Assembly: GCA_902616145.1 (NCBI GenBank)
Contig: CACMRM010000006.1
Coordinates: 1 to 59,318, forward strand
Length of the DNA stretch: 59,318 nt
Origin: an uncultured Pelagibacteraceae bacterium
GTDB lineage: Bacteria; Pseudomonadota; Alphaproteobacteria; Pelagibacterales; Pelagibacteraceae
Direction: 5' to 3'
Translations under genes and position numbers: made by a program
Shown: one piece after another, positions 57,505 to 59,318 of the stretch
Layout of the letters: each line of letters begins with the position of its first letter
Numbering within the stretch: the stretch's first letter is position 1
The notes under the pieces: model-generated
What the model was told of the DNA's origin: nothing
Databases searched by the model: none
Seen by the model: only the letters and a program-made list of their open reading frames with translations

Positions 57505-58275
57505 TTATAAGCTTTTTAGATCGTACTTTGCAAGTAAAGTTTTAAAAAATCCGGATGATTGTTTTTTCTTAATCCAATTGCTGACGTAATCATTCCATAC
57601 CTTGTCACCCTTTGGAACCATCATGGCTAAAAATGCTGGATTTTTTCCTCCATCAGGAACTATGGCTAATTGCGGATATTTAATAACTAATTTGTTTGCT
57701 TCTGTTGAACTTGTAATATTTCCATCAGCTCTTCCTGCTAAAACTTCTTGGAAATCTCTCGCAGGAGCTTCAACTGATTGAAGTTTTGATTTTGGAAAAA
57801 ATTCTTTTGCTTTTTCTTCCTGAGAAGTACCTAATGTTGTAGCTATTGTAACACTACTATTGTTTAGAGACTCCCAAGTTGAAAACTTTTTTAAATTCTT
57901 TTTTAAAACAAGTGGGACTGTTGCATACTTGTAATATGTAGCGGTGAACCCGGCTACTTCTGCTCTTTTTGGTGTTTTGGTTACACTTGTCGATATATCG
58001 TATCTATCAGCTGTTATTCCTGCAACAATTGTTTTCCACTCTGCAGGCACAAATTTAACTTTTACGCCCAAATCTTTAGCTAGTTCATTCATCACATCAA
58101 TATCAAATCCTTTGTACTTGTTTGTTTTTGGATCTTTCATTGACATTGGATCCCAGTCTCCTGTCGTACCAACTCTCAGCTCACCACTTTTTTTGATTGA
58201 GTCTAACTTAGATGCTGCTTGAGCACTTGTTGTTATAAGTAGTAGTAATAATATTGAAAATATTTTTTTAATCAC
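57505..58275 (-). CDS. ABC transporter substrate-binding protein, amino-acid family (SBP_bac_3)
   Basis: 256 residues. Signal peptide [20 protein letters not shown] cut near residue 20, then [40 protein letters not shown] (usual GFDVDLAxAIA), [20 protein letters not shown] and [16 protein letters not shown]. The periplasmic receptor for a polar amino acid or similar small acid; PheC-like cyclohexadienyl dehydratase relatives share this fold. Transcribed ahead of its permease. Confidence 0.93.
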
Positions 58276-58349
58276 TTTTTGTTAATAGCTAATCTTTCTC
58301 TTTTTTTCGATTTGCAATTTGACCCACTTAACAATCTTTTGAAAAGGGG

Positions 58350-58394
58350 TTGACTGAAAGGCAGTTTATCAGCTATAAAGAACAAAACAAGAAC
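58350..58394 (+). promoter_or_regulatory. umuDC promoter with alphaproteobacterial LexA operator
   Basis: TTGACT (58350-58355), 18-bp spacer, TATAAA (58374-58379). Immediately after the -10 is GAAC-AAAACAA-GAAC (58380-58394), the reverse complement of the GTTC-N7-GTTC LexA box known in alphaproteobacteria. A repressor there would cover the transcription start. The umuD ATG is 5 bp after the box. Confidence 0.8.
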
Positions 58395-58398
58395 ATTT

Positions 58399-58794
58399 AT
58401 GAAATTAACAATACCTTATTATTTACATAAAGTGGGAGCTGGTTTTCCCTCTCCGGCAACAGATTATATTGAGGACGATATAGATCTAAACTCTCATCTC
58501 ATAACAAATGCACCAGCTACGTTCATCATTAGAGTGCAAGGTAAATCTATGACTAATGTGGGCATATATGACGGCGATCTATTAATAGTAGATAAAAGCT
58601 TAAATCCAAAAAATTTCTCCACTGTTATAGCAAATATCAACGAAGAACTTGTAGTCAAAACTCTGGTTAAAAGTAAGGGCAACAACTATTTAACATCAGG
58701 TTCAAAAAACACATCGGATCGAATTAATTTAACAGATAATCCAGAAATAATAATTTGGGGAGTAGTAACATATGTCATACACAAACAGCAGTAG
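58399..58794 (+). CDS. umuD: UmuD-like DNA polymerase V accessory protein (S24 peptidase)
   Basis: 131 residues. Self-cleavage site Ala14-Gly15 in VGAGFPSPATDY, catalytic Ser50 in VQGKSM and Lys87 in VVKTL. The Ser-Lys spacing of 37 equals that of E. coli UmuD (60/97). RecA filaments trigger cleavage to UmuD', which joins UmuC in translesion synthesis. A LexA-type box lies in the promoter. The stop lies 23 bp inside umuC, so the two are coupled. Confidence 0.95.
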   Translation: MKLTIPYYLHKVGAGFPSPATDYIEDDIDLNSHLITNAPATFIIRVQGKSMTNVGIYDGDLLIVDKSLNPKNFSTVIANINEELVVKTLVKSKGNNYLTSGSKNTSDRINLTDNPEIIIWGVVTYVIHKQQ

Positions 58795-59318
58795 AAAAAA
58801 AGTTGCATTAATTGACTGTAATTCATTTTATGTTTCTTGTGAAAGATTATTTAATCCTAAAATACAAAATATACCAGTTGTAGTACTATCTAATAATGAT
58901 GGTTGTGTAATATCCAGATCTACTGAAGCAAAAAAACTTGGAATAAGAATGGGAGAACCATATTTTAAAGTTAAAGATTTAGTTAAAAAAAACAACGTTC
59001 AGATATTTTCTTCGAACTATGCATTATATGGAGATCTTTCTAGAAGAGTGATGAAAGTTTTAAAAGGTTTTACTGATAAAATTGAAATCTATTCTATAGA
59101 CGAAGCGTTTTTAGATTTATCGCATATCAAAGATGAACAAGTCGAAGAATATGGAAAAAAAATAAGAGAAAGAGTTTTAAAATGGACGGGAATACCAACA
59201 AGTGTAGGAATTTCAAATACAAAAACTTTAAGTAAAGTTGCAAATCATATTGCCAAAAAAAATAAAGCAGGAGTGATCTTTCTAAAAGAAAATATTGATA
59301 ATATACTAAAAGATTTTG
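58772..59318 (+). CDS. umuC: UmuC-like Y-family DNA polymerase, 3' end beyond window
   Basis: Starts at ATG 58772 inside umuD and stays open for 182 codons to the window edge. The Y-family palm is clear: VALIDCNSFYVSCERLFNPK, VVLSNNDGCVISRSTEAKKL, catalytic Asp-Glu in IYSIDEAFLDL, and PTSVGISNTKTLSKVANHIA. Full UmuC is about 420 residues, so more than half is missing. It is the error-prone polymerase V catalytic subunit. Confidence 0.95.
   Translation, partial: MSYTNSSRKKVALIDCNSFYVSCERLFNPKIQNIPVVVLSNNDGCVISRSTEAKKLGIRMGEPYFKVKDLVKKNNVQIFSSNYALYGDLSRRVMKVLKGFTDKIEIYSIDEAFLDLSHIKDEQVEEYGKKIRERVLKWTGIPTSVGISNTKTLSKVANHIAKKNKAGVIFLKENIDNILKDF

Follow-up and report, generated by a model that had tools for sequence, protein, structure and literature searches.

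The window analysed here spans contig C6 in full (59,318 bp), from a 1.04-Mb assembly with 94% completeness, and it ends in a umuD-umuC gene pair on the forward strand. The umuD gene (58399–58794) encodes an S24 peptidase of 131 residues (PF00717, E-value 7.9e-23; NF007621, 138.1 bits with a cut-off of 110). The umuC gene (58772–59317) shares its first 23 bp with umuD and matches PF00817 (E-value 1.1e-42). Its best NCBIfam match, NF002955 (UmuC) with 208.7 bits, stays under the cut-off of 431, as the contig stops within the gene. In the alignment to 1umu_A and 8gmt_B, Ser50 and Lys87 of UmuD fall on the catalytic pair of E. coli UmuD' and A14-G15 falls on the E. coli cleavage site. The S24 domain, the Ser-Lys dyad, the predicted cleavage point after a short arm and the adjacent umuC together place the protein in the UmuD class. 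E. coli has the same umuD-umuC pair, and both UmuD proteins show the Ser/Lys dyad and a GFPSPA cleavage region. The E. coli umuDC operon lies behind a LexA operator, as the pair described here lies behind a candidate operator, but the E. coli LexA box is palindromic and in this differs from that of SAR11. The arm of the SAR11 UmuD has 14 residues before the cleavage point, with Ala there instead of Cys. That of E. coli UmuD has 24, which is consistent with our alignment. In a second family of the same order the arm is about as short. Searches among plasmid and phage UmuD proteins gave relatives of less than 60% identity only (among the best 5000 records; 75 records).

The region directly upstream of umuD is compact. 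Between 58350 and 58399 of the forward strand we find, in order, the −35-like hexamer TTGACT (58350–58355), an 18-nt spacer, the −10-like hexamer TATAAA (58374–58379), the 15-bp direct repeat GAACAAAACAAGAAC (58380–58394), the tetranucleotide ATTT and the umuD ATG at 58399. The repeat has the form GAAC-AAAACAA-GAAC, with the reverse complement GTTC-TTGTTTT-GTTC, and we describe it as a putative LexA operator from its sequence and from its conservation in relatives. Two GAAC (GTTC) half-sites in direct repeat at a spacing of 7 are what is expected of an alphaproteobacterial LexA operator. A first-pass annotation of this DNA had described two exact GAAC half-sites 7 bp apart, directly after a TTGACT/TATAAA promoter and 5 bp before the ATG. 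The half-sites, their spacing and their position after the hexamers are as described, while the repeat ends 4 nt short of the ATG. The putative operator overlaps both the presumed start of transcription and the region of ribosome binding. Both hexamers are conserved in relatives, and TTGACN-N18-TATAWW abuts the box in 79 of the 80 best-matching umuD loci. A mechanical sigma-70 scan of 58270–58420 reported no promoter and hence not TTGACT either; the scan requires T at the end of the second hexamer, where this site has A. The promoter was judged by eye and by conservation instead, and on that judgement the box abuts it here and in orthologous promoters.

The match to the motif means little by itself, because 0.94 exact GAAC-N7-GAAC sites are expected by chance in the window, where one is present, and 61 of 100 shuffled windows hold at least one. 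Across the genome there are 11 exact sites and 21 for the backwards pattern, with no excess; with one mismatch allowed the numbers are 403 and 624, again with no enrichment. Long ORFs contain eight of the 11 exact matches. With the motif not enriched and most exact sites in coding sequence, a sequence match alone is weak evidence, and we used position and comparison across relatives instead. A pattern with an AT-rich spacer gives 55 sites in 14 genomes and 17 when read backwards, which is only mild support because the pattern was drawn from boxes already seen. The counts for the bare motif are what would be expected of a chance direct repeat, GAAC occurring twice 7 bp apart in AT-rich DNA with no operator function. 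The placement of the site argues otherwise. Of the 69 ORF starts in the window (ORFs of at least 100 aa), only that of umuD is preceded at 60 bp or less by an exact box on either strand; allowing one mismatch raises the number to two of 69. Of the three intergenic exact sites in the genome, one precedes umuD, one precedes lexA and the third lies between nrdA and pgmG.

Comparison with relatives bears on the same point. Of 121 genomes searched, 101 matched: 60 loci in the window's genus (f1, counting its own genome), 39 orthologues in the second family (f2) and two weak f2 matches, which have about 28% identity in a LexA-sized frame. Regions upstream of umuD were read for all 60 f1 matches (own included) and for 30 of the 39 f2 orthologues. 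The box is present in 59 of the 60 f1 loci, the last of which is cut by a contig end and has 4 nt of upstream sequence, and in all 30 f2 loci read. The first-pass annotation's reading would have been refuted had the box not been conserved upstream of umuD in relatives; it is found in every readable locus of both groups. Among 44 distinct f1 sequences the invariant columns are 8 of 8 in the half-sites, 4 of 7 in the spacer and 6 of 60 in the flanks, and among 20 distinct f2 sequences they are 8 of 8, 6 of 7 and 10 of 60. The half-site invariance was measured on sequences chosen by a pattern that contains the half-sites, and it has force only in that the pattern missed none of the loci for which upstream sequence exists. 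The column tests for this box, and for the lexA and nrdA boxes below, ignore kinship and are descriptive. In the best 80 of 562 confirmed umuD loci the box occurs in 80 of 80, although these loci are all close to the query, overlap the genomes searched and are not independent; the best 80 of 562 protein relatives are 88–100% identical and come from uncultured Pelagibacteraceae, Pelagibacterales and Ca. Pelagibacter, which places the window's genome in SAR11. Half-sites unchanged in 59 f1 and 30 f2 loci within variable flanks, and the same motif at lexA in both families, make a chance repeat very unlikely.

Conservation of this kind could also come from translation initiation, with the repeat kept as a ribosome-binding site or upstream spacer and LexA playing no part. 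In f1 the box ends 3–4 nt before the ATG and so fills the Shine-Dalgarno position. In the f2 loci L270, L281 and L284, however, it ends 17 nt before the ATG, and the 5' neighbouring gene differs from that in f1, so that both ribosome binding and a shared neighbour fail as explanations of its conservation. AAGAAC is a poor Shine-Dalgarno sequence, and the distance to the start codon is different again for the related sites at lexA, recA and nrdA-pgmG. We regard an origin in translation initiation as highly improbable.

A LexA that could bind the site is encoded in the same genome. The lexA gene on contig C2 scores 54.2 bits with a cut-off of 23.7, and 168 bits against TIGR00498 with a cut-off of 110.95, so that the lack of LexA, which the first-pass annotation had named as fatal to its reading, does not apply. 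The protein combines a winged helix with an S24 domain that has the active-site Ser (GDSM) and Lys (ATLK), and its cleavage point is Ala-Gly (IAAG). Its identity to LexA from Sinorhizobium, Cereibacter and Sphingomonas is 47–57%. The recognition region SKSGIHRLISALEER is of the alphaproteobacterial type and matches that of LexA from Sinorhizobium meliloti, Cereibacter azotoformans and Sphingomonas parapaucimobilis, with SKSG[IV]HRLI.ALEER as the pattern common to all four. GAAC-N7-GAAC lies just upstream of lexA in Sinorhizobium meliloti and Cereibacter azotoformans, and GTTC-N7-GTTC just upstream of lexA in Sphingomonas parapaucimobilis. In SAR11 we read the region upstream of lexA for 31 of 51 f1 matches (own included) and 20 of 32 f2 matches. 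GAAC-[TC]TTTATA-GAAC is present in 31 of 31 f1 loci and GAAC-ATTGRTA-GAAC in 20 of 20 f2 loci, as expected if lexA is autoregulated. The column test for the lexA box gives P 0.06, which is weak since the flanks are conserved too.

Another regulator, such as an XRE/S24 repressor, might use the umuD box with LexA uninvolved, since the assignment to LexA is made from sequence. This too is highly improbable, because SAR11 lexA and the three alphaproteobacterial lexA genes carry the GAAC-/GTTC-N7 motif and because the motif is the one published for Caulobacter LexA. That report (PMC12700426) gives the Caulobacter crescentus motif as GTTCN7GTTC, and two early SOS genes there carry GTTCttgttatGTTC; the half-sites and the 7-bp spacing are the same as in SAR11, where the other strand reads GTTCTTGTTTTGTTC. 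The SAR11 site is different in its setting. The f1 umuD box is placed 3–4 nt before the start codon, and it precedes umuDC, genes that Caulobacter lacks according to another report (PMC1839093).

The first-pass annotation had also proposed a test for the same box before recA and lexA. The box is found before lexA in both families, and recA has a site with a fixed variant half-site. We read recA for 21 of 55 f1 N-terminal matches (own included). For f2, 15 genomes were asked and two had no match, leaving 13 loci, one of which breaks off 17 nt upstream of the first Met found. The site GAAC-AAAATGT-GTAC is present in 21 of 21 f1 loci. GAAC-N7-GTAC is present in 12 of 12 readable f2 loci, ten identical to f1 and two with spacer changes. 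The recA site is thus one base off the consensus, GTAC for GAAC in one half-site, and fixed in that form. In 11 of the 12 readable f2 recA loci an exact GAAC-N7-GAAC also lies 115–122 bp upstream of the first Met. For uvrA, looked at in the own genome only, six patterns gave no box in the 500 bp upstream, although excinuclease genes rose in a phage-infection study (PMC12753301). The gene divergent from uvrA in this genome was read by eye as ssb.

Position, conservation, the LexA in the genome and the box before lexA all point the same way, in agreement with the first-pass annotation's alphaproteobacterial SOS-type operator. We conclude that the 15-bp direct repeat very probably serves as LexA operator for the umuDC operon in this SAR11 (Pelagibacteraceae) bacterium. 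By its sequence it would be a LexA operator of the ordinary alphaproteobacterial kind, belonging to a streamlined genome and to a small and strongly conserved SAR11 SOS regulon. With LexA on 58380–58394, the region of transcription start just downstream of the −10 hexamer would be occluded and transcription blocked. RecA filaments, formed upon DNA damage or replication stalling, would bring about LexA self-cleavage, and this in turn the derepression of umuDC. UmuD, with Ser50 and Lys87, would then cleave itself at A14-G15, and UmuD'2C would be the error-prone polymerase V. LexA binding, repression, induction by damage and mutagenesis at umuDC are all inferred, and that the repair would be mutagenic follows from the UmuD and UmuC families.

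Published expression data, from phage infection and iron stress rather than UV or mitomycin treatment, give only indirect support for an inducible SOS response in SAR11. A study of HTCC1062 infected by pelagiphage HTVC027P reports that recA, lexA, umuD, umuC, three excinuclease subunits and the host nrdAB genes rise, with nrdA up 3.12- to 8.87-fold (PMC12753301). The same study gives 460 host genes (33.19%) as changing, of which 83.1% rise; with so many changes, most of them upward, the increase is weak as specific evidence. In iron-stressed Ca. P. ubique a late cluster is characterised by lexA, recA and mucA (PMC2864753). The conserved boxes supply candidate LexA operators for an SOS response in streamlined, abundant ocean bacteria, at lexA, recA, umuDC and, in f1, possibly nrdA-pgmG. 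They offer a mechanism by which recA, lexA and umuDC could rise together in one pelagiphage infection, and the nrdA-pgmG box offers a possible one for the rise of nrdAB in the same infection. Among the open-access listings searched and the passages of the papers cited, no account of the SAR11 boxes was found.

The divergent nrdA-pgmG region of the own genome, on contig C8, carries the candidate LexA box GAACATTATAAGAAC (L012:1501-1515). This GTTC-N7-GTTC lies about 105 bp before nrdA and 81 bp before pgmG. It occurs in 30 of 30 f1 loci read (of 55 f1 matches, own included), with constant half-sites and a variable spacer. Its support is weaker than that of the umuD box because the flanks are well conserved too, with 38 of 60 columns invariant and P 0.04 in the column test. 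In f2 a reductase relative of about 1200 aa was followed in 11 genomes; it gave no match above the NrdA cut-off, and a box within 250 bp was found in 0 of 11. A palindrome-like sequence, ACACAACATGTAGTTGT, lies closer to nrdA than the candidate LexA box, and we take it to resemble an NrdR box. In f1, LexA might control the NrdA-type ribonucleotide reductase, so that SOS raises dNTP supply together with RecA and polymerase V while uvrA has dropped out. We hold this tentatively, at somewhat less than even chances, because a third of the host genes change in the phage study in which nrdAB rises. In its authors' view, the higher nrd expression supports replication of phage DNA (PMC12753301). If LexA control of nrdA were true, triggering SOS would be of advantage to a phage that depends on the host's reductase. 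For other organisms a connection of SOS with nrd may already be in print, as a Vibrio cholerae SOS paper names nrdAB (PMC5963079). The same listings and passages gave no account of LexA control of nrdA in alphaproteobacteria, and the predicted nrdA-pgmG site is the one point of the regulon that would be news if shown.

Some sites lie in or next to coding sequence. The exact sites in purF and ppx (names by eye) were rejected as operators; they are inside ORFs, and some relatives have them too, as coding sequence. The site in the purF-like ORF (by eye) at C2:77192-77206 is identical to the lexA box, and the same gene in G062, G009 and G073 has variants with one or more bases changed. The identity to the lexA box is probably a coding coincidence. 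The f1 lexA start codon (MLTKKQ) is immediately preceded by the end of another candidate site, GTAC-N7-GTTC, in L007 and L105-L134. This site could instead belong to the coding sequence if translation begins further upstream (at MYKVCSM in the own genome), though three of its spacer positions vary and its half-sites are constant.
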